DNA of 10,347 nucleotides from Candidatus Hydrogenedentota bacterium (GTDB lineage: Bacteria > Hydrogenedentota > Hydrogenedentia > Hydrogenedentiales > CAITNO01), in assembly GCA_903922535.1 (NCBI GenBank), contig CAIXUF010000312.1, forward strand, positions 1 to 10,347. Direction: 5' to 3'. A program made the translations under genes and the position numbers. The notes beneath the pieces were generated by a model. The model had not been told where the DNA came from and made no database searches. It saw nothing but the letters and a program-made list of their open reading frames with translations. Shown one piece after another: positions 1 through 10,347 of this stretch; positions within the stretch are counted from its first letter, which is position 1, and every line of letters starts with the position of its first letter.

Positions 1-531
1 TGCAGAACAGTATACGTTGCTTGTCGCGCCGCCGTAGCCGGCCACGTTCCCTGTGAACACGCAGTTCGCAAACGCCGGAGCGCAGGCGTACCAGGTGGAC
101 ACCGCACCGCCGATATAGTCGGCTGTATTGCCCGCGAAAACGCAGTCCGCAACCATCGGGGCACAGGCGTAGTTGTACATCCCGCCGCCTTCATAGGCTC
201 TTCCCCGTGTGACGGTGAAGCCGTCCAACGCCGCGTTGTCGGCGCCGATCACACAACGGTGCTCCTTCTGCCCGTCGATGACGGCGGAATTCGCCAACCA
301 GTTGCGCTGGTTACCCGAGGTTTCAGTACCCACAAACCCGCCATAGAGATTCACGCCGGGCCGCATCGTCACCACCGGGTCGCTTGCGGAAGTGTAGGCA
401 CCCGAGGCAACACAGACGTCGCCGCCGCCGTTGTTTGCGGCGGCATCCACCGCGGACTGAATATCCCGAAACGCCGTGGCCCAAGTGGTGCCATCCCACG
501 GTCCGGCGGTGTTCTGCGCGTTGACACGATA
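1..531 (-). other. Right-handed parallel beta-helix domain 2, cut at the window edge
   Basis: Residues 3273-3449. The head reads YRVNAQNTAGPWDGTTW, FRDIQSAVDAA, LYGGFVGTET, VIDGQ and LDGFTVTRG, almost the same as the head of the helix at 8719-9822. PMP-like coils follow: GGGMYNYACAPMVADCVFAG, then GGAVSTWYACAP and NCVFTGN, with Cys codons at 142 and 61, a 27-residue period. Only the first two or three coils are inside the window. By analogy with the first helix it should continue for some six coils and end in a choice-of-anchor Q-like segment beyond position 1. Here the coils have extra cysteines (NYAC, WYAC) not seen in the first helix. Confidence 0.88.
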
Positions 532-3500
532 CTTTACGGGGCCGGTCACAACAACCGCGCGCGTAACTTCGGCAGCGTTGTTGCCGTTGGCGTCCGCGGC
601 GTTGTACGTCACCACGTAGGTGCCCGGAACCACTGTGTTCACGATATCACCGCCCACCGCGGCAACCGGGCCGTCCGGGCAGTTGTCGGTTACGGCCGCT
701 CCGAGTTCCGCATATATGTCCCCGCATTCCACGGCCTGCGTTGACGGGCCGTTCAGTATGATCACCGGTGCCGTCTCGTCCGCAATCACCAGGTTCACGA
801 CGCTGCCGTCTTCGAGGACGGTGGAGGCAGGCGGATCCTGGGCCAGGACCGTTCCGGGCGCCGCAAGGGCGCCGCACGCTTCGGTGACTGTTCCAACGGC
901 CAGCCCCGCGGCGAGAATTGCCGACACTGCGTCTTGATGATTCAGACCTGTCACCGACTGCAGAACCGCCCTATAAACGCCGTTCACAGTCTTTGCCTCG
1001 TTGTCGTGAAGCATGAAGGATACCGGCGGCGGGGTTACCCAGCCTGCAATGTCCTGGCATGTCACGGTATGACCGCCCAGCGGCACGTCGGCTGCAACGT
1101 AATTGCCCGGCCACCATGGGCCATTGTCAAGCTGCCATGCAGCGCCCCGGGCGATTGCCGCGTTGGGCGCGATCACGGCCTGCACGGTGCCATTGCGCAG
1201 CCAGCCCGCCGGGACCACCTGGACAACGCGGGACATCTGCACGGCCATCACACCGCGGGAGTTCTCCACGTTGTACTCGACGAGATAGGAGCCGACCGTG
1301 TTGGTGTCAACCGGATTGTAGGTCTGAATGACCGCGGAAAGGTCGCCGTCGACGCTGTCGGACGCCGTGGCGCCCTCCTCAATGTAGCGGCCGCCAACCT
1401 GAACGTAGACCGTGCCGTCGCCGTTGAGCGTAATCACCGGACGCTCCGGCGGCGTGCCGAATTCAAGCATATAGGTCACGCTGGGTCCGGCCAGCGCCGC
1501 CTGGTAGTCGAACAGGTGCACCTCCGCCGGAATAGTCGCGGGTGTCTGGGGCAGGTGGGCAACATAGGGCGTCTGCCACGCATTCGGCCCCACGAGAAGC
1601 TGTTTTCCATCCGCGCGCCGCACGGACGTCAATGCCAGGCCACCGCCAGTCGGATCCTCAAAGCGCGCGTAGAACCAGCCGGGCTCCGCGGGCACGGTGA
1701 CGGTGGTGATTCCGCCCGCCGTGTCTGTCACAATGCCGGTGTTGACGCCCGAGACCGGCAGGGTCTGACCGTCACTGGCATACAGGTGGTCGGGCATCTT
1801 GTCGGTATCCGGCATGTCGTCCGCGAGGAAATCGGGACGCCCGTCCGCCGAAGGCTCATCCACCGCGACGACATGCGTCAAGGGGTGGATATTGACTTGG
1901 TCAAACAGGGACTGCACCTTGCTGCCCAGATCGGTTACGTGCTCGTACGTGGCCTCGAAGGAGATAAATTTTCCCTGCAGCGTCGAGGTCAGGTTCCACT
2001 GCGCCACGTCGATGGCACCCGGGGCCAGCGAGCCGAAATCCGCCGTCAGCGACGGGGTCTTGGGCGCGCCGTTGACTTCCGACGAGAGGATCTGGAAACC
2101 GATGAGAAGCCCGGAGTCATTATCGATGACGCGTGGCTGACCCGAGGTGATGGTCAGCGCGTTGGCCGTACCCGCACCGTCGTTCTTCACCAGCAGCCCC
2201 AGCGCGAACGGAACCGCGGGTTCTATCTCCGCCGTGAACGGGTCGTCGCTGTACACCCGCTCTTCCAGGAAATAGTCCAGTTCCAGCTTGGGATCGGGAT
2301 ACACATCAATGGCCACGGGGAACAGCGGCATGGTCATGGTGGCCCCGCCCATGGTGTACTGCACGGTTCCGGAGACATAGTACGTCGTCATGCTGGCGGG
2401 TGCGGCGTCCCGTCCGGGTATAAGCGTCCAGTTTGCCGTCCCCGTGGTCAGGGGAAGGATCATGCCCGTGCCATCAACGTCATCGACCCCTGCCAGCGCG
2501 GGACCCTGAATCTCAAACATTTCCGTGGCGTCCGCCCCGGTCTTGTCTTTGACGTAGAGCGCAACCGACAGATCCTCGATGGTATCAGTCCCGTTGTCAT
2601 TGCTGATGCCCAGCTTGGCGGCAAAGGCCGCGCGGGTCATCACCGCCCGCTGGTCAATCTGCATCGTGACGAGGGCGCACACGCCCGTCAACGGATCGAG
2701 ATCTTCCCCGCAGTACACCGGCTGCGGAACGGGATCGGGAGGATTATTGACGGTTGCGCCGCCGCCACCGACAATCCATCCGCCGCCACCGCCACCGACA
2801 CTTATGGGAGTCGGGACCCACGGCGAACAATCAGGAACACTGGCCCTGTGCAGGTTGACCGGAACCGTCACGTAGACGCGTTCGCCCACGACATACGAAT
2901 AGACCAGACTCAGACTGCTCACGTCGCATGCTTCCCCGGACGGATAGTCTGGACTCCGGTAGATGTTCACCGGAATGACGCGCCTGGACATGGCCGGAAG
3001 GTCTCCAAGATCCGTGACCAGCGGCTCGATTATCCATGCGCCCTGGTTGACCACGTCGAAGTGGGCGGTTTGCGCCGCGACCAGGCCGTGGTTCTCCACT
3101 TCGAGATCCACCTGCTTGGGCCCGTCCAGTTCAATCAGCGGGGGCGTCACGGTGACCACGGGCGCAGGGACATTCGTCTCAAACTCCGCCACGAGGTGAA
3201 CCACATATTCGTCCACAATCTGTGTGGGCACCACGGACCAATCCATCCGCACGGACTCGATCGGCAGGAACGCGGTCATCTCTGTGACCACGCCGCTGAC
3301 GATCTTGACCATCGTGGTGGAGGACCTGTGCTGGGTCGCCACGGCCTCGACGTGGCAATACCCCTCGGGAACGTTTTCAAACAGGGCAACTCCATCCTGA
3401 TCGGTGATCTGTTCGTATCCGAGCGGCTGTCTGCTAACCGCATCCAGCAGACGCACCGTGACGCCCGCCAGATTCGGCTTGCCCTCGCCGTAATAGCTGG

Positions 3501-6500
3501 CCTCGTCCTTTGCCGTCACCCGCAGCGAACCCTTCAGGTCCGAAATGCACGTGAACTCAAAGGGAACCGCAAGCCAGTTTCCGGGACACGAGACCGCCAG
3601 TCCGCCGGTGTACGTTCCCAGAGGAAGCGCCGCGGGCGGCGCGAGCATCAACTGCACCGTGGTTTTCTCTCCCGGTGCGATGACCGGGATGCTCAACGGC
3701 GTAATCAGACTCATCCAATCGGCGCCCTGCGGAAGCATAACCTGCACGTTCTCCGCGTCGCGCGAGCCCGTGTTGCCAATATCGAACGAGTAGACAGTCT
3801 GGTGTGTCTCCGTGGCGGTCGCCCGCAGCATGCCGCCCTGCAGCCGGGCCGGTGTCACCACAAGCACCGGCTCAGGAGACTTCACTTCAACCTGGATCGG
3901 CACCGTGACGGCACCGCCCTGCGTGGTGGCAATCTGAAGCAGCGTCTCGTAACTCCCCTGCGCCGACGGAACCGCGCTGAGCGCCATGCGCAACGTTGTG
4001 GAGCCCAGCCCTGGCAGCGTTGTTTCGGCAAGTTCCGCTGTGGCGCTCACGCCGGACGGAATACCGCCAAGCGACGCGGCAAGTCCGTTCGTGGCCTGGT
4101 CCCCCGGATTGGTAATGGTAAACACCAAGGTCTGCGCCGGTGCGTTCGGCAGAATCTGCACCGAGGCCGATTTCGGATCCACCAGGATGCCCCACAGGCT
4201 GAACCAGTCTTGAACCTCTCCCAGGCCGGAACCGGCAGGGCCCGCGCTCAACGAATACAGCCCGGCCTCCGTCGGCAGCGGGTTGAACGTGGCGTAGAAC
4301 GCGCCCGTCGCATCCGTGCCGGCCGTAACCGTGCGGAAGGTCCCCTGCACTCCAACGTTGACTTCCACATTCGCGTTGGCCACGGGCGTTCCATTCGCCC
4401 GGTGGGCTTCACCGATCAACGGTATCGACGTGCCGGCCGGCGCATTGTCAACGGGGGTTGCCACCGTCACGAGAATCGTTTCCACACAAAAGTCGGACGA
4501 GGTCCCGATATTGTCCCCTTCCCCGCCTTCGGTTCCCTCGTTCACAGCATCGGCACAGTCGGTGAACACCACAATCCGGTACTCACCCGCACGCGAGGGA
4601 TAGCGCAGCGTGCGCGTCTGCTCATAGAATCCCAAGGCGTCGAGCGTGGCGCTGACCGCCACCTCCGTGTCATACACGTGCGCTTCCGTCAGCGCGTCCA
4701 CGATGGAGATCCGGTCCGTCCATGCGCCCTGGACGGGAACGCTTCCCGCATTCCCCACCCGCCATGTGACATTGAATTCCGTCCCGACCAGCCCGTCGGC
4801 GGGCGTGCCGACCTGTTCCACCACGAGGTTGGGCCTGGGCGGTTGCGTCAATTGCAGTGTGTCCGCCGAAAACGCCGTGTTGTTCTCGGGCGCGCCCTCT
4901 TCCCGGACCACGTCGGCCACGTCGGCCACAACGCACACCCGGTAGAAGCCCCCGGGCAGGCGGCCCGGCACAACAAACGTGCAAGTCTCCTCGTATTCCG
5001 TGTTCCTGGCCAGCGATTGACGGTGGATCGGACGGCCCACCAGCGTCATCGGCCCGCCGGACTCCGGCTGCAGGTACACACCATCCATCCAGAAGGGCAG
5101 CGCCACCGCACGCCCCAGATTCGCCACGCTGAACTTGACGCCCACCGTACTGTCGCCGGCCACGGTGGCCGGAACGGTCACCCCGGTCACCGCAAGGTCA
5201 GGACGCCACATTTCCGTGCAGGGAATGGCCGCCAGCGTGTTGTCGGTCTCGTCCCCTTCGGCGATGTTGTTCCGGTTGTCCACGGTGACCGTGAAGCAGG
5301 TCTGGTCTCCATCGAGTTGCGGCATCGCGAAGCTTATCTGCCGGGTTTCGCTCGCGTCCGCGGCAAGACCGCCGTTGACCGCCTGCTCGAAGACCATGGT
5401 CCCGGAAGAGGTTCTCACCGCGTCGTAACGCCCCGACAAGGTGCCGCTCATGCCTGTATTCGCCACCGTGTACGTCACCGTAACCGAATCGCCCAAGGCC
5501 GCGTGATCGGGTCCCACAACATCGGAGATCACAAAGTTCGGTCCGGTCGGCGTGATCGTGAAAGTCCCCGAAACGAATGACAAAATGGTGTAGTTCGTTC
5601 CCGCGCTCAAAGTGCCCTGGTTGATGGCATAGGCGCCCATCTCCTCGCCGGGCACACGGCATAATGCACCGGGAAGGAAATCGCCCGCCGCCAGCGCCGG
5701 GCTGGCCGCATAGGTCAGCGCCGGGTCGGGTGAACCGAGCATCTTCGACTTGTTGTCCGCGGTCACCGTCACCGGCTTCGGCGTGATATTCGCGCTCAGC
5801 CCGGCCGGCTGTATCAGCGCATAATTGGCCGCGCCCGCGCCCGCCAGTTTCAGTGCCGCCGCGACCACCTTGACCAAGCCCGCATCCCTGTCGGCAAAGG
5901 CGCCTGTCATCGGGCTTGCCAGTGAGACCACATCACCGGAAATCACACCGCCCGCCGTCAGCGTGGCGCCGGTGATTCTCGCCAGCGTGGTCCCGTCGTA
6001 CACCTTGTTGGACGCAACCGCGCCCGTCACCGTCAACGGCTTGGGCACAATCGTCAGGTTGGCGCCCACAAAGCTCAGGAGATACTTGGGCGGCGCGGCA
6101 AGCGTGCCTTGACTGATGGCATGCGCGCCCACCGATTCGCCCGAAGCGCGCGTCAACGTGCCACTCAACGAATCGCCGGGATCAAGCCAGCCCGAGGTAA
6201 TCTGATAACTCAAGACCGGGTCCGCCTCCCCGTACACCTTCGTCACGCCATCCGCACTCACCCTGACCGGCCTGCTTGTGATAGTCAAGTTCGCGCCCAC
6301 GTAGGTGACGCTGTAGTTTGCGCCCGCCGTCAGGGTGCCTTCGAGAATTTCATAGCTGCCGAGTTCCTCGCCTGCCACACGGCTCAGCGCGCCGCCAAAC
6401 AGGTCGCCAGACACCGGCGCCGGACTGACACGGTACGTCAGTTCCGGGTCGGCCGCACCGACCGTTTTTGTTTGGGCGTCCGCCGTTACCGTGATTGGCA

Positions 6501-9500
6501 TGGGCGTGATGTCCGCCGTCAGTCCAACCGGCTGAATCAGCGTGTAATTGACCGCGTCCGCGCCGATCAGGCCCAGATCGGCCGTCACCGCCTTGCCCTG
6601 CCCGGCGTTCTTGTCCGTAAAGCTGCCCGTCATCGGCGTCGCCAGCAAAACCGCGTCCCCGCTGACCACCCCGCCCTCGGCCAGCACGGCGCCCGTAATC
6701 ACCGCATTGCGGTTGCCGTCGTACACCTTGTTCAAAGCGACCGCCCCGGACACGTTCAACTCCTTCGCTGAAATGTCCGCGGACAGCCCGACCGGCTGCA
6801 GCAGCGTGTAGTTGTTCGCGTCGATGCCGTCCAAGGTCCACGTGGCCGTCACCGGTTTGTTCAGGCCAATTAGCTTGTCCTCAAACAGGCCCGTCGCCGG
6901 CCAACGCAAGCTGACGCTATCCCCTGCCAGCACACCGTCCAACACGCCGCCGTTGCTGATGACCGCAACCGTGGCGCCGTCGTAGACCTTGTCCTCAGCC
7001 ACCGCATCAGTCACGGTGACCGCCTTCGGCGTGATGTCCGCCGTCAGCCCGGACGGCTGCGTCAGGACATAGTTCTCCGCATCGATGCCACCCAGTGTCC
7101 ATGGGGCTGTGGCCGTTACCGAGATTCCCGTGCCCACGTCCTTGCCGGCAAAGGCACCCGCGGGCGGAATGACGACCACATCATCTCCGTTGACCATGCC
7201 ACCGAGGCGGCTGAATCCGAATTCGGCCGCCGTGGCGCCATCATACTCCTTGTCCAGTGCCGCCACATCAAGCAAGGCCGCCGCCTTCGGCGTGATGTTC
7301 GCGGTGAGCCCGGTCGGCTGCGTCACCGTGTAGTTGCCCGTGCCGGAACCGCCCAGCAGCCACGTTGCCGTGACGGGCTTATCCACGCCAACAGTCTTGT
7401 CCGCAAAATAACCCGCGGTGGGCGGAATCAGGAATACCGCCAGTGGGTCAATCGCGCCGTTCAGTATGCCGCCGCCGCTGATGACCGCGTCCGTGGTGCC
7501 GTCGTACTCCTTGTCCGCGGCAACAGCGCCGCTCACCGTGAGTTCCTTCGCCGTGATATCTGCTGCAAGCCCCTGCGGCTGCGCCAGCGTATAGTTGCCG
7601 GCGGACGGACCGCCCAGGATCCATGGCGCCGAGGCGGCAACCGATATGCCTGTGCCCGCATCGGGGCTGGCAAAGAATCCCATGGGGGGCGCGGTCACGG
7701 TGACCAAGTCGCCTTCGACCACCCCGGAAAGGGTCGTCCCCGCAAATGCCGCGTCCGTGGTGCCGTCATAGACCTTGTCCAGGGCCGCCGCATCCGCCAC
7801 TGTCAACGTTTTGGGCAGGATGGTCAGCACCGCGCCGACAAAGCTGACCGAGTAGTTCCGCGGGGCCGACAGCGTGCCCTGGCTGATGGCATAGGCGCCC
7901 ACGGTCGGGCCGGGCTCGCGCACGAGCGCGCCGCTGAGCAGGCCGCCCGATTCCAGCGGCCCGGACGTGATGCGCCAAGTCAGCGCCGGCTCGGCGCCGC
8001 CGTAGACCTTGGTCTGTTCATCCGCCGTTATCGTGATGGCAATCGGCGCGCTCCATTTCGCATACAACGTCTGGTCGGCGGTAATCGTCACCGCCGTGGA
8101 CTCCGTCACCTCCACGCCCGTACCCTCGACGCCGGTCCACCACCCCTCAAAGCTGAAGTCGGCTAGCTCGGGCGTTGGAAGGGTACCGTAGCTCAGGCCG
8201 TAAGCCACCGTCACGCGGTCAGGCGACACGCTGCCGCCCGACGGATCCAGCGTCACCGTGTACTGGTCCGGCGCGAAGTTCGCCGTCACGGAAACATCAC
8301 CTGTTACTTTTGTTTCCGTGCGCGGATTCTCCGTCGAACCGTCGCTCCACTGCTCAAAGTGATAGCCGGTATCCGCCACGGCTTCCACGGGCGTGCCATC
8401 GCCATCGTACGCCACCGTCTGCAATGTGTCGCCGTTGACGGCTCCGTGTCTCCCTGCCATATACGTTAGGGTGTGCGTTTCGGCAAGGAAGTTCGCCGTC
8501 ACCGACCTGCTGCCGTCCATGACAATGCTTGCGCGCGGAGACGCGCCGGAAATGTCGCCGCTCCAACCGGCAAATGACCAGCCGGTGGATGCCCATGTAG
8601 AGAGCGGAATCTTATCGCCGCGAACAAAGGAATGCACCCCTTCGGACGGTATTGTACCGCCTTGACCGGCCGGGGAAACCTGCATTGTGAGTGTGATGAT
8701 GTCTTCCGGCGCAACAGGCCCCTCGTAGGCACCCATATCTATGCCCGCACCCTGGGGACGGGCCACGTTGCGGATATCCACGGCGGGCGCTCCCGCCGCC
8801 GTACCCGTGTCAATGCATGGGGAACCCACCTGAAGCTGCAAACTGTCTCCGTTGCCAGCAACAAAAAGCGGGTCAGCACTTATGTTCCCCGTCCCCTCAT
8901 AACCCCCCTGGACGCACGAATATGTCAGTGACGACGTGGAATACGAATCGTTGTATATCTCTCCATGCCAAAGTGGGGTGTCTCCCCAAAGGACGCAGTT
9001 CGTCAACGTCGGCGAAGATGAGTAGTTCTTCATCCCACCCGCCGAGTGGTCGTCATAATAGCCCGGGACTTCGGGATTGGCCCAGTTGCCTGTGAACGTG
9101 CAGTTCGTCAACACCGGCGAAGAGGAACTGTTAACCATCGCGCCGCCGCCAAAATAGAGATTGGCCCTGTTGCCTGTGAAGACGCAGTTCATCAACATCG
9201 GCGAAGAGGACTGGTTAACCATCCCGCCGCCGCCATAGTTGCGATTGACCACATTGCCAGCGAAAGTACAGTTCGTCAACATCGGCGAAGACCCAATGTT
9301 GTGCATCGCACCGCCGCTAGCCCAGCCACTGGTCGAATTGTTCATGAACACGCAGTTCGCCAGCATCACCGAGGAAGCGTTGACGTTGAACATCGCACCG
9401 CCGTAAGTCCAGGATGAACTGCCGACGAACGTGCAGTTGGCCACCGTCGGCGAAGCCCCGCTGTTCAACATTCCGCCGCCACAATCAGCGTATCCCCGCA

Positions 9501-10347
9501 TTACGGTAAAGCCGTCCAACACGGCTTCACTGGAGCCAACCACGCAGCGGTGTGCGTTTTCACCGTCGATGACGGTGCCGTTCGCCAGCCAGCCGCGCTG
9601 ATCGCCCGTGGTCTCCGTGCCAGTAAACCCGCCATAGAGAAGCACGCCGGGCCGCATCGTCACCACCGGGTCACTCACGGAAGTGTACGCACCTGCGGCG
9701 ACCCACACATCACCACCGCCGCCGTTGGCGGCGGCATCCACCGCCGATTGGATGTCCCGGAACGCCGTGGACCATGCGGTGCCGTCCCAAGGTCCGGCGG
9801 TGTTCTGTACATCAACGCGGTACGCCGCGGCTTCGGCAAACTCCGCTGTGATGGAAACGTTCATCGTTGGGTTCGCGTCCTGACGAACCGCAGTGGTCGC
9901 GCCGTCGCTCCACTGGACAAAGCGCCAGCCAATGTCCGCCACAGCGGCCACCGTCGTGCCGCTCATGCCTTCGTCCAACGTCTGAGTCAACGCGCCAAGG
10001 ACTGTTCCGTGCTCCCCAGCGGCATAGGTCAGCGAGTAAACTACTGTGAACTGCGCCGTTACTGTAATGTCCTCCATCACATTCGCATCCGTGCGCGGGT
10101 TCTGCGTGGATCCGTCGCTCCACTGAATGAAACGGCAGCCGGAATCGGGCACGGCTTCCACCGCCGTGCCACTGCCCTCGTACACCACCGTCTGCAATGT
10201 TGTACCGTCGAGAGACCCGTGTTCCCCAGCCGTGTAGGTCAAGGTGTACGTTTCGGCCAGGAAGTTCGCCGTCACAGACTTGTTGCCGTCCATGGCAATA
10301 CTTGCACGCGAAGACGCGCTGAAAATGTCACCGATCCAACCGGCAAA
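1..10347 (-). CDS. Giant multidomain extracellular repeat protein (InlB, beta-helix, MBG/YDG, CARDB, PASTA-like), partial at both ends
   Basis: The minus strand is open from edge to edge: 3,449 codons with no stop. Recognisable domains stay in one register throughout, so there is no frameshift. Neither start nor stop codon is in the window, so signal peptide, anchor and total length are unknown. The domains are all beta-rich modules typical of secreted or surface proteins: InlB repeats, right-handed beta-helices, MBG and YDG units, CARDB, NEW3-like, Ig-like, PEGA-like and PASTA-like domains. I see no catalytic motif, no obvious transmembrane segment and no sorting signal. The likely place is the cell surface or outside the cell, and an adhesin-like or structural role is inferred from families only. 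Codon choice is GC-rich. The reverse-complement register is open for 1,611 codons between 745 and 5577, which means the gene uses no TTA, CTA or TCA codons there. The gene is certain; its specific function is unknown. Confidence 0.96.
544..780 (-). other. DUF5011/HYR-like Ig domain 2
   Basis: Residues 3190-3268. It opens DETAPVIILNGPSTQAVECG, continues YAELGAAVTDNCPDGPV and closes VPGTYVVTYNAADANGN. The 'D-x-x-A-P-(V/I)-I-x-L-x-G ... C-G ... Y-x-(E/D)-x-G-A-x-(V/A)-x-D-N-C' form, with Cys in the second strand and the D-N-C turn, is the two-cysteine version of the domain. The two cysteines could form a disulfide. It leads straight into the second beta-helix, with no InlB array between them, unlike the first helix. 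Confidence 0.88.
781..960 (-). other. PASTA-like domain
   Basis: Residues 3130-3189. It reads VTGLNHQDAVSAILAAGL, AVGTVTEACGA and then GTVLAQDPPASTVLEDGS, ending VNLVIA. This order (V-x-G-(L/M) helix start, A-x-x-x-L-x-x-A-G-L-x-x-G, then G-x-V-x-x-Q-x-P-x-x-(S/G) and G-x-x-V-x-L-x-(V/I)) matches PASTA. PASTA domains are best known from penicillin-binding proteins and Ser/Thr kinases, where they bind cell wall fragments, but single copies also occur in mosaic surface proteins. Binding cannot be judged from sequence here. Confidence 0.82.
973..1206 (-). other. PEGA-like small beta domain
   Basis: Residues 3048-3125. It has GTVQAVIAPNAAIARGAAW, then WQLDNGPWWPG, the turn PLGGHTVTCQDIAGWVTPPP and a final VNGVY. 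The motif 'G-x-(V/L)-x-(V/A)-x-I-x-P ... W-x-(L/V)-D-x-G-x-W ... G-x-H-x-V ... G-W-x-x-P' is common to PEGA-type modules in environmental bacterial surface proteins. It connects the DUF5011-like domain to a PASTA-like domain. Confidence 0.65.
1213..1449 (-). other. DUF5011-like Ig domain 1
   Basis: Residues 2967-3045. It opens RPVITLNGDGTVYVQVGG, then YIEEGATASDSVDGDLS, and closes NTVGSYLVEYNVENSRG. The pattern 'I-x-L-x-G ... V-x-x-G-x-x-(Y/F)-x-(E/D)-x-G-A-x-A-x-D ... D-G-D-(L/I) ... V-G-(S/T)-Y-x-(V/L)-x-Y-x-V' is the clear hallmark of the DUF5011 Ig-like domain of bacterial surface proteins. Confidence 0.88.
1450..2718 (-). other. Unidentified region B (about 423 residues, probably several beta domains)
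   Basis: Residues 2544-2966. I cannot assign a named family with confidence. Three parts can be told apart. Part 1 (2293-2718) starts after the linker with a close Cys pair (CGEDLDPLTGVC) and has a beta-rich core ending FPVAIDVYPD. Part 2 (1858-2292) has a distinctive block: LELDYFLEERVYSDDPFT, VPFALGLLVKNDGAGTANAL, LLIGFQI, DFGSLAPG, STLQGKFISFEATYEHV. Part 3 (1450-1857) starts with the acidic run SADGRPDFLADDMPDTDKMP, then YASDG, VPAEPGWFYARFEDP and VTYMLEFG. Part 2 has an N-x-G-x-G-x-A turn like NEW3 or CARDB folds and may be an Ig-like family. Part 3 has spaced Asp residues that could bind calcium; this is a guess. Confidence 0.5.
2719..2802 (-). other. Gly-rich and Pro-rich linker
   Basis: Residues 2516-2543. 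The stretch reads SVGGGGGGWIVGGGG and then NNPPDPVPQPVY. It has runs of six and four glycines around Trp-Ile-Val and then a Pro-rich tail. It is the only low-complexity glycine hinge in the window and divides the two unidentified regions. It is probably a flexible break in an otherwise rigid rod. Confidence 0.8.
2803..3249 (-). other. Unidentified beta-rich region A (about 149 residues)
   Basis: Residues 2367-2515. I do not recognise a named family. The N-terminal half has WSVVPTQIVDEYVVHLVAEF and TNVPAPVVTVTPPLIELDG, followed by the strand LEVENHGLVAAQ. The C-terminal half contains MSRRVIPVNIYRSP, a Cys (EACDVSS) and VYSYVVGERVYVTVPVNL. Alternating hydrophobic and polar residues, an N-x-G turn and Pro-rich breaks suggest one or two Ig-like beta-sandwiches. 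It ends in the Gly-rich linker and a neighbouring unknown region. Confidence 0.5.
3250..3531 (-). other. Carboxypeptidase-regulatory / prealbumin-like domain
   Basis: Residues 2273-2366. It opens GSLRVTAKDEASYYG and has LAGVTVRLLDAVSRQPLG, then TDQDGVALFENVPEGYCHV and VEAVATQHRS. The run 'L-x-x-V-x-V-x-L ... T-D-x-x-G-x-x-x-F-x-x-V-P-x-G-x-(Y/C)-x-V' is the standard motif of transthyretin-like carboxypeptidase-regulatory folds, which stiffen or decorate extracellular proteins. The regions next to it on the C-terminal side are not recognised. Confidence 0.8.
3532..3876 (-). other. NEW3-like beta-sandwich domain 2
   Basis: Residues 2158-2272. It reads PEPVLVVTPARLQGG, YSFDIGNTGSRDAEN, then a core with WMSLITPLSIPVIAPGE and a closing LGTYTGGLAVSC. 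The layout repeats that of the preceding unit: N-x-G turn, 'I-x-P-G-x-x-x-x-(V/I)' step and final 'G-x-Y-x-G' strand. It leads into a carboxypeptidase-regulatory-like module without a linker. Confidence 0.6.
3877..4188 (-). other. NEW3-like (COG1470-type) beta-sandwich domain 1
   Basis: Residues 2054-2157. The segment has VDPKSASVQILPN, LVFTITNPGDQATNG, then IPSGVSATAEL, the step LGSTTLRMAL and a closing YETLLQIATT. A conserved N-x-G turn, a middle strand with Gly-x-x-x-T-x-x-(L/V) and a final 'S-Y-x-x-x-(L/V)' strand describe the NEW3 or alpha-galactosidase-associated type of fold. A related unit follows at once. Confidence 0.6.
4189..4458 (-). other. Ig-like / carboxypeptidase-regulatory-like domain
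   Basis: Residues 1964-2053. It opens TPVDNAPAGTSIPLIGEAH and has GTPVANANVEVNV, followed by TDATGAFYATFNPLP and YSLSAG. The run 'G-x-P-V-A-x-A-x-V-x-V ... T-D-A-x-G-x-F' is the usual signature of bacterial Ig-like or carboxypeptidase-regulatory-like beta-sandwich modules. Family assignment beyond the fold class is uncertain. Confidence 0.65.
4459..4836 (-). other. CARDB-like domain 3
   Basis: Residues 1838-1963. It opens RPNLVVEQVGTPADGLVG, continues FNVTWRVGNAGSVPVQG and WTDRISIVD, and closes YRIVVFTDCADAVNEG. A short Gly-Glu-rich loop (EGGEGDN) sits in the final turn where the family normally has E-x-D/N-N. This is the last CARDB copy before the Ig-like and NEW3-like region. Confidence 0.87.
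4837..5205 (-). other. CARDB-like domain 2
   Basis: Residues 1715-1837. It opens RPDLAVTGVTVPATVAGDS, has the strand VKFSVANLGRA and closes with YRVCVVADVADVVREEGA followed by PENNTAF. The (R/P)-D/N-L start and the closing acidic-Asn-Asn turn fit CARDB well. It also contains WMDGVYL, a common CARDB mid-domain strand. It sits between two further CARDB-like domains, so it is part of a three-unit stalk. Confidence 0.88.
5206..5547 (-). other. CARDB-like domain 1
   Basis: Residues 1601-1714. The segment starts GPNFVISDVVGPDHAALGD, continues VTVTYTVANTGMSG and ends FTVTVDNRNNIAEGDETDN. This opening (polar residue, hydrophobic strand, then V-x-N-x-G) and the closing (V/I)-x-E-x-x-E-x-x-N are typical of CARDB, the cell-adhesion-related domain of bacteria, an Ig-like fold of about 110 residues. 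It follows the last MBG domain with no linker. Confidence 0.85.
5548..8046 (-). repeat. Block of ten MBG and YDG domains
   Basis: Residues 768-1600. Four MBG (YGX-type) units of 76-79 residues and six YDG units of 86-89 residues alternate. In order they are MBG 7810-8046; YDG 7543-7809, 7285-7542, 7024-7284, 6760-7023 and 6499-6759; MBG 6271-6498 and 6040-6270; YDG 5776-6039; MBG 5548-5775. MBG units open with (I/V)T(V/I)(T/S)AD followed by KVYG, KTVG or KMLG, and close with a TLxAxxxY then LTI step. YDG units carry K(V/E)YDG and close with NY(T/V/A)L-x-QP-x-GL-x-A-(D/N)-I(T/S). These are small Ig-like beta modules that occur as long tandem arrays in bacterial surface proteins. The last MBG runs straight into the CARDB domains. 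Confidence 0.93.
8053..8700 (-). repeat. InlB / Listeria-Bacteroides repeat array 2 (three units)
   Basis: Residues 550-765. The first unit (8488-8700) has TLTMQVSPAGQGG, then FAGWSGDISGASPR, ending SVTANF. The second (8275-8487) has TLTYMAGRHGAVNGD, then FEQWSDGSTENPRT, ending SVTANF. The third (8053-8271) is a classical Flg_new repeat: YTVTLDPSGGSVSP, YGLSYGTLP, FEGWWTG and a closing TLYAKW. The first two units are close copies of the first two units of the array at 9838-10347; the third is a different subtype. The array links the beta-helix upstream to the MBG/YDG block downstream and probably acts as a stalk or spacer. Confidence 0.88.
8719..9822 (-). other. Right-handed parallel beta-helix domain 1 with PMP-like repeats and choice-of-anchor Q-like C-terminal segment
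   Basis: Residues 176-543. The head reads YRVDVQNTAGPWDGTAW, then FRDIQSAVDAA, a Gly-rich turn, LYGGFTGTET, TVIDG and LDGFTVMRG. This is the usual opening of secreted bacterial beta-helix proteins, with rungs for an extended parallel helix. Six coil repeats follow, each with a GG(G/A)M-x-N step and an Asn-Cys-(T/V)-(F/L) step. The domain ends with ADPLF, GSPCIDTG and DMGAYEG, which matches the choice-of-anchor Q type ending seen in such proteins. Such folds form rigid rods that often bind carbohydrate or surfaces, but some are lyases. I see no lyase active-site signature, so I infer a structural or binding role. The domain is complete and lies between two InlB arrays. Confidence 0.88.
8995..9441 (-). 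repeat. Six tandem PMP-like coil repeats inside beta-helix 1
   Basis: Six repeat cores read Asn-Cys-(Thr/Val)-(Phe/Leu), usually followed by x-Gly-Asn and then GG(G/A)M-x-N. Their Cys codons lie at 9433, 9352, 9268, 9184, 9100 and 8995, giving periods of 27, 28, 28, 28 and 35 residues. The 28-residue units are closely similar at the DNA level as well, for example around 9088-9140 and 9171-9224. The pattern resembles Chlamydia-type polymorphic outer membrane protein repeats (GGAI and FxxN motifs), with Met in place of Ile. The last unit is longer and diverges at the end of the helix. Confidence 0.85.
9838..10347 (-). repeat. InlB B-repeat-like array 1 (two and a part units)
   Basis: Residues 1-170. 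Three units of about 70 residues are visible: the end of a first unit at 10261-10347 (begins FAGWIGDI, ends SVTANF), a second at 10048-10260 (TLTYTAGEHGS, then FIQWSDGSTQNPRT, ending VTAQF) and a third at 9838-10047 (SLTYAAGEHGT, then FVQWSDGATT, ending ITAEF). The pattern of aromatic-x-x-Trp-Ser-Asp/Gly followed by (V/I)TAxF is that of the divergent InlB B-repeat family (Flg_new_2), small beta-grasp-like modules found as stalks in bacterial surface proteins. The first unit runs out of the window, so more units may precede it. A beta-helix domain follows directly. Confidence 0.87.

Follow-up and report, generated by a model that had tools for sequence, protein, structure and literature searches.

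The stretch of DNA analysed here (the window) spans positions 1 to 10,347 of contig CAIXUF010000312.1 from a Candidatus Hydrogenedentota bacterium (assembly GCA_903922535.1), and is probably the inside of a giant gene for a secreted surface or extracellular mosaic protein, in which a tract and a module, termed T and M (together residues 1975–2948 of the minus-strand translation), would form a conserved two-part joint. The observations behind this explanation are the coding frame, the order of its domains, the conservation of T and M, the location of M behind signal-peptide-like stretches elsewhere, and the linkage of T to M. The giant gene itself is ordinary in kind; it is the conserved T–M module pair that deserves a study of its own.

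One coding frame across the whole window

Six-frame translation of positions 1–10347 revealed 3,449 codons without a single stop on the minus strand, open at both edges as the earlier note had claimed, and between 13 and 151 stops in each of the remaining five frames. Across all six frames of 300 order-2 Markov shuffles, the longest open frame averaged 300 codons and never exceeded 620. The guanine-cytosine content (GC) at codon positions 1/2/3 was 0.62/0.51/0.77 over the whole frame, with the third position (GC3) being the highest in 10/10 blocks of ~345 codons (block range 0.68–0.82). When internal protein copies were compared segment by segment, mismatches at codon positions 1/2/3 amounted to 24/18/53 for the two beta-helix header copies (128 codons) and 19/15/33 for two InlB-like repeats (100 codons), while two more diverged YDG pairs were less clear (36/31/40 and 43/36/52; 87 codons each). 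Moreover, eight Pfam families scored above their cut-offs on the whole minus-frame protein, all in one register and ordered along the frame, in agreement with the earlier observation that recognisable domains succeed one another. Together, the codon-position bias, the single register of the eight families and the third-position-weighted differences between internal copies show that the minus frame is coding.

The right window edge falls inside an InlB-like repeat (a DNA match of 78% between 8275–8574 and 10048–10347 reaches the edge), and the left edge inside a second beta-helix block. Since both edges cut through repeat or domain blocks, the full gene should be longer than 10.3 kb, and the proposal of one gene beyond that size is well supported. 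The uninterrupted frame of 10,347 nucleotides (nt) passes the giant-gene limit of 5 kb set by an earlier survey (as quoted in PMC11573180), and the protein also carries extracellular-type repeat domains, a further mark of a large surface protein. Its features are as follows (aa, amino acids; ORF, open reading frame):

1..10347, minus: open coding frame of 3,449 codons, open at both edges
9832..10347, minus: InlB-like B repeats (Flg_new_2), residues 1–172; E 5.6e-27, two stretches pass alone, the first cut by the edge
8713..9831, minus: right-handed beta-helix, residues 173–545; Beta_helix E 9.8e-11, 84-nt DNA period
inside the first beta-helix, minus: choice-of-anchor Q domain, residues 500–542; NF041518 E 2.3e-13
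8056..8682, minus: Flg_new_2 repeats and one Listeria-Bacteroides repeat, residues 556–764; Pfam and TIGR02543
5548..8037, minus: MBG_2/YDG array, residues 771–1600; six YDG and four MBG_2 stretches
4426..5541, minus: CARDB domains, residues 1603–1974; E 2.1e-26, three stretches
3070..4425, minus: tract T, residues 1975–2426; NEW3 at 2184–2247 above the Pfam cut-off, and relatives
2692..3069, minus: T-side end and Gly-rich linker, residues 2427–2552; from comparison with relatives, short here
1504..2691, minus: module M, residues 2553–2948; consecutive beta domains predicted
1216..1434, minus: bacterial surface Ig-like domain, residues 2972–3044; PF16403
781..957, minus: PASTA domain, residues 3131–3189; PF03793 E 6.9e-09
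547..750, minus: second bacterial surface Ig-like domain, residues 3200–3267; PF16403 E 1.7e-09
1..531, minus: second beta-helix block, residues 3273–3449, cut by the edge; its header shares 74% identity with the first across 128 residues
934..5580, plus: shadow ORF of 1,548 aa with codon boundaries common with the real frame; not a gene

Residues 1–100 and 592–691 are 68% identical, and the choice-of-anchor Q domain scored 50.2 bits (curated cut-off of 25), which places it in that family. The array matched YDG at E 3.7e-88 and MBG_2 at E 3.9e-57, with a 261-nt DNA period in part. The second beta-helix block was not itself matched by a Pfam beta-helix family, and its header pairs with the first at the DNA level (54–516 vs. 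9345–9807; 74.6% identity). Within T, a CarboxypepD_reg match at residues 2293–2358 stayed below its cut-off (E 1.4e-5). Residues 2400–2960 (561 aa) yielded no Pfam match at E 0.1. The Pfam search gave no RHS match in the window protein, and matches to REV1_C and rhamnogalacturonidase were set aside as falling below their own cut-offs. These families are known from extracellular proteins, and their combination is that of an extracellular stalk-and-head protein. The window protein is thus a mosaic of known kind, and as a finding it is mostly ordinary.

Conservation and linkage of T and M

M, of ~396 residues, had no match in Pfam, NCBIfam or PHROG, yet it is carried by records named Verrucomicrobiota, Planctomycetota, Cyanobacteriota and Pseudomonadota. 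Ten relatives were 35–45% identical to the window version, with 36 invariant columns in 11 rows, and a PDB sequence search returned one chance-level match (E 0.046). M stands alone behind signal-peptide-like stretches in proteins P0197, P0198, P0202 and P0204, and such a stretch directly precedes M in 7/7 genomes looked at, out of 11 with M (all judged by eye). Two short M proteins, P0195 and P0197, have dockerin matches. A literature search, with most subscription journals and bioRxiv preprints outside its scope, returned no title or abstract describing the T–M pair or its locus, and the first 300,000 characters of PMC3482391 mention neither CARDB, NIDO nor rhodanese.

Window residues 1975–2426 and 2553–2948 align to T and M proteins encoded by separate genes; as the window protein served to define the pair, its own T-then-M membership holds by construction. 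Among giant proteins with M, 52/53 also carry T, and T precedes M in 52/52, although seeding the search with a region in which T and M stood together biased this count. The exceptions among giants are two proteins with T and without M, and P0178 with M and without T. Separately, an aromatic/hydrophobic-Arg motif occurs within the last 14 residues of 29/53 M-bearing giants (a pattern chosen after viewing the ends), and the diatom record P0172 (Fragilaria crotonensis) carries T and M (37% identity, with 29% of the query region covered), through contamination or transfer.

As a less biased test, genomes were found by the M profile alone and then searched for T. M was present in 8/369 genomes of one class sample (in G347 as a 57-residue piece only), in 1/200 genomes of that class's phylum (a sample overlapping the former) and in 2/395 genomes of the phylum of a Bacteroidales genome. 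It appeared in 0/14 genomes searched of the phylum of locus L003, an empty answer that is not proof of absence, and in 0/10 of another sample. At E ≤ 1e-100, T was found in 7/11 M-positive genomes (6/10 in a fair count, as the T profile contains G190's own T) vs. 0/40 M-negative genomes, controls that came from the same samples and were not matched for size or kinship. T and M shared one open frame in G190, G779 and G858, lay no more than about 7 kb apart on a single contig in G290, G448 and G510, and were on two contigs in G295, where T sits at a contig end.

The gap between T and M measures 127 residues in the window and, by the same measure, 122–799 residues in 52 relatives (238–503 in 46/52). 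Gap segments over 150 residues, available from 51 giants, were Cys-rich in the three sequences inspected, and 51/51 were related to another segment. An RHS domain inside this gap was not supported, as 0/51 segments matched the two RHS proteins tested; 3/51 matched the post-T stretch of the T-bearing protein of Eleftheria, and one of these also that of Methylomonas.

M and T also occur apart. M is a gene of its own with T in a nearby gene at loci L014, L015, L018 and L019, while a single protein combines the two in Nostoc (L012) and G190. Across 12 loci, tblastn detected RHS in 6/12, and transglutaminase-like, rhodanese-like and T sequences in 7/12 each, with the reservation that queries came mostly from L018 and L019, that the counts include the query-supplying loci, and that L019 and L020 represent a single locus. 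T, RHS and M follow one another in this order on one strand in L018, in L020 (where one gene holds both T and RHS), in G290 and in G448; the order in L014 is M, rhodanese-like, T, RHS. At the Eleftheria locus (L018), genes for GspG, GspF, GspE, a secretin-cohesin fusion and pseudopilins lie beside M. A dedicated type-II-like secretion system was nevertheless set aside since it rests on this one locus: its proteins were found by tblastn in 0 of the other 11 loci, within the fetched stretches.

Three IMG/VR contigs carry M, and in the two that were examined (L014 and L015; not L016) it lies beside phage tail or head genes; M of L016 closely resembles that of L014. A phage origin was rejected, as residues 1990–2960 had no match among 50,697 phage records and the carriers L014 and L015 look like prophage borders.

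The plasmid-borne loci showed some further features. In the Eleftheria terrae plasmid (L018, 24007–26391), the secretin is fused to a cohesin domain near the M gene. Methylomonas plasmid pFW12EY (L020, 27182–36091) holds CRISPR-associated genes of type I-F, which lie ~9 kb away from the giant with beta-helix, T and RHS. Nostoc plasmid pTCL26-01_C (L012, 19072–21337) has eleven head-to-tail annotated ORFs of 156 nt at 211-nt spacing, which fall under two repeated protein accessions with seven and four copies, respectively, and lie close to a partition locus and the M-bearing 4,599-aa gene.

Weighing the explanations

In the explanation that we favour, a Gram-negative bacterium, perhaps of the Planctomycetes-Verrucomicrobia-Chlamydiae (PVC) type, would export one giant mosaic protein to its surface or beyond. 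The Ig-like arrays (YDG, MBG, CARDB and Ig-like) would form a long stalk, the beta-helix blocks would be its probable ligand- or matrix-contacting parts, and T and M would make up the conserved joint, with two parts, by which the giant is held or displayed at the cell surface. We infer that the window protein is secreted, that it serves in adhesion and that T and M are in physical contact; a joint role of T–M in giant surface proteins would fit their linkage.

Several points weigh against this explanation. Both gene ends lie outside the window, which contains neither an anchor, a sorting signal nor a signal peptide of the protein. Next to the seeding bias in the giants and the self-match of G190, 7/40 M-negative controls had weak partial T matches (3.2e-9 to 9.8e-4), and T was not found in 4/11 M-positive genomes (G326, G337, G347 and G434). 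G337 looks like a real exception; in G326 and G434, M is on short contigs (32.8 and 7.9 kb).

A more specific version can be put forward tentatively, in which T and M are halves of an unnamed extracellular joint found across phyla. In Pseudomonadota, M with its signal peptide might dock on a separate T-bearing giant, often with RHS and helped by rhodanese-like and transglutaminase-like partners, and in bacteria of the PVC type, in cyanobacteria and in the window the two might have been fused into one chain. A serious contender, with a somewhat less than even chance of being right, is that the protein is an ordinary mosaic and no more, with T and M as further stalk segments that travel together by descent and have no joint or assembly role. 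M is, however, well conserved for a stalk segment, given the identities and invariant columns mentioned above, and T and M remain close even as separate genes.

That M is instead a delivered or enzymatic part, such as a glycan-acting or glycan-binding domain, for which T and the rest merely act as carriers, appears unlikely. Ten invariant polar residues (D162, D163, T166, E170, N183, N204, D296, D300, R372 and D374, numbered on a 421-residue piece) speak for such a role, as do structural neighbours from the fold search, which include parts of glycoside hydrolases (GH123, GH20) or cellulose-binding domains. In contrast, no catalytic fold stood out, and the matches listed were beta sandwiches of many functions; no fold search matched the whole module, and its C-terminal ~130 residues were barely covered.

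It is very improbable that the frame is an assembly artefact joining a YDG/beta-helix gene to a CARDB–T–M gene. This suspicion arises from the combination of a YDG array and M, which occurred in 0/206 sequences (the comparison covered 204 retrieved relatives and the translations of two loci), in spite of 113 with YDG and 64 with M, and which could hint at a chimaera. A chimaeric join is disfavoured since header copies of the beta-helix flank the T–M part on both sides and codon usage correlates between the two window halves (r 0.88; quarters 0.71–0.86), this last test being a weak one in that a single Eleftheria gene reaches a correlation of 0.84 with each half. The high GC3 in all blocks likewise argues against it. 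Repeat collapse is not suggested either, since local DNA matches of at least 60 nt within the window reach about 81% identity at most and copies of repeat families at most 86%. Identity rises to about 96% in two short matches (28 and 23 nt), and no near-identical long repeats that would invite collapse were found in the DNA comparison of the window.

Finally, the plus-strand ORFs were rejected as genes, and a real antisense gene in place of the 1,548-aa ORF is hardly credible, even though it has a stop-free run of 1,611 codons, which none of the 300 codon shuffles reached (median 747, 95% point 1,219, maximum 1,569). Because codon boundaries are shared, the ORF at 934–5580 can be interrupted only by sense TTA, CTA or TCA codons, of which the real frame has 13, and their uneven spread (12/13 in residues 311–1590) probably accounts for the long run. 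Moreover, the ORF had no Pfam match at E 0.01, and an M-bearing giant of another genome has an even longer antisense open frame. At L017 (1–17001; genome G190), the M-bearing frame is reported as open over 8,464 residues, and the antisense is also open across the whole 17 kb. The earlier warning that a gene caller requiring closed ends would miss the gene and report shadows was logically right, as the closed ORFs include the one at 934–5580 on the plus strand. An ORF listing with open ends, however, gives the real frame at once.

Relatives and known systems

The earlier placement of the gene among the very large bacterial ones was fair, but its size is not exceptional: 54 of the 120 matches listed (of 659, in a search limited to about 1,900–6,040 aa) and 49/73 proteins of a second relative search are at least as long as the window protein. 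In PMC11573180, proteins of >5,000 aa are called 'huge', over 41,000 such proteins are counted across the tree of life, mostly eukaryotic, and Planctomycetota, Omnitrophica and Lentisphaerae are among the bacterial phyla rich in them. Against this 5,000-aa limit, the window protein measures at least 3,449 aa and is open at both ends. Its named relatives come from Verrucomicrobiota, Limisphaerales, Planctomycetota, Phycisphaerae, Pontiella, cyanobacteria and Pseudomonadota, and further from Flavobacterium, Pedobacter, a metagenome-assembled genome named Bacillota and one diatom. Locus L003 (Omnitrophota) is 47% identical over part of residues 13–766. An origin of the window in Omnitrophota, which this match suggested, was set aside given the lack of M in the 14 genomes searched of that phylum, although such an empty answer proves no absence.

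Most giant surface proteins of uncultured bacteria still lack an explanation, and a conserved pair, fused in some bacteria and encoded by neighbouring genes in others, offers a small expressible target (about 400 and 450 residues) for testing giant assembly. Annotation would benefit as well from a model of M, which has none in Pfam or NCBIfam and is nonetheless present across four named phyla.

With regard to known proteins, P0004 (3,702 aa) resembles the window protein in its beta-helix header (two copies), Flg_new_2, Flg_new, YDG, MBG_2 and bacterial surface Ig-like domains, and begins with a signal-peptide-like stretch (by eye). Unlike the window protein, it has no T or M match, and its own TIG and Kre9_KNH domains are unmatched in the window. 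The filamentous-haemagglutinin-like proteins of Janthinobacterium, Dyella and others likewise have YDG and often MBG_2 in their listed annotations. The haemagglutination-activity domain (PF05860/PF13018) of such two-partner secretion proteins was unmatched in residues 1–3449, its expected N-terminal site lying outside the window.

The CARDB/Ig-type giants of Verrucomicrobiota, Planctomycetota, Cyanobacteriota and Pseudomonadota (for example P0151, P0157 and P0158) carry T and M in the window's order, with residues 1590–2960 being covered for 99% by P0151 and 82% by P0157 and P0158. In contrast to the window, a YDG-array match was present in 0/64 sequences with M. The split T/RHS/M loci of Pseudomonadota (Methylomonas koyamae plasmid pFW12EY and the Eleftheria terrae plasmid) hold homologues of both T and M, and the Methylomonas T resides in a 4,657-aa protein that has a beta-helix, as does the window, together with RHS domains. 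In these loci, however, M is a separate protein, RHS stands between T and M, and rhodanese-like and transglutaminase-like genes lie nearby, whereas the window version is a fused T–M with a short gap, joined to a YDG array.
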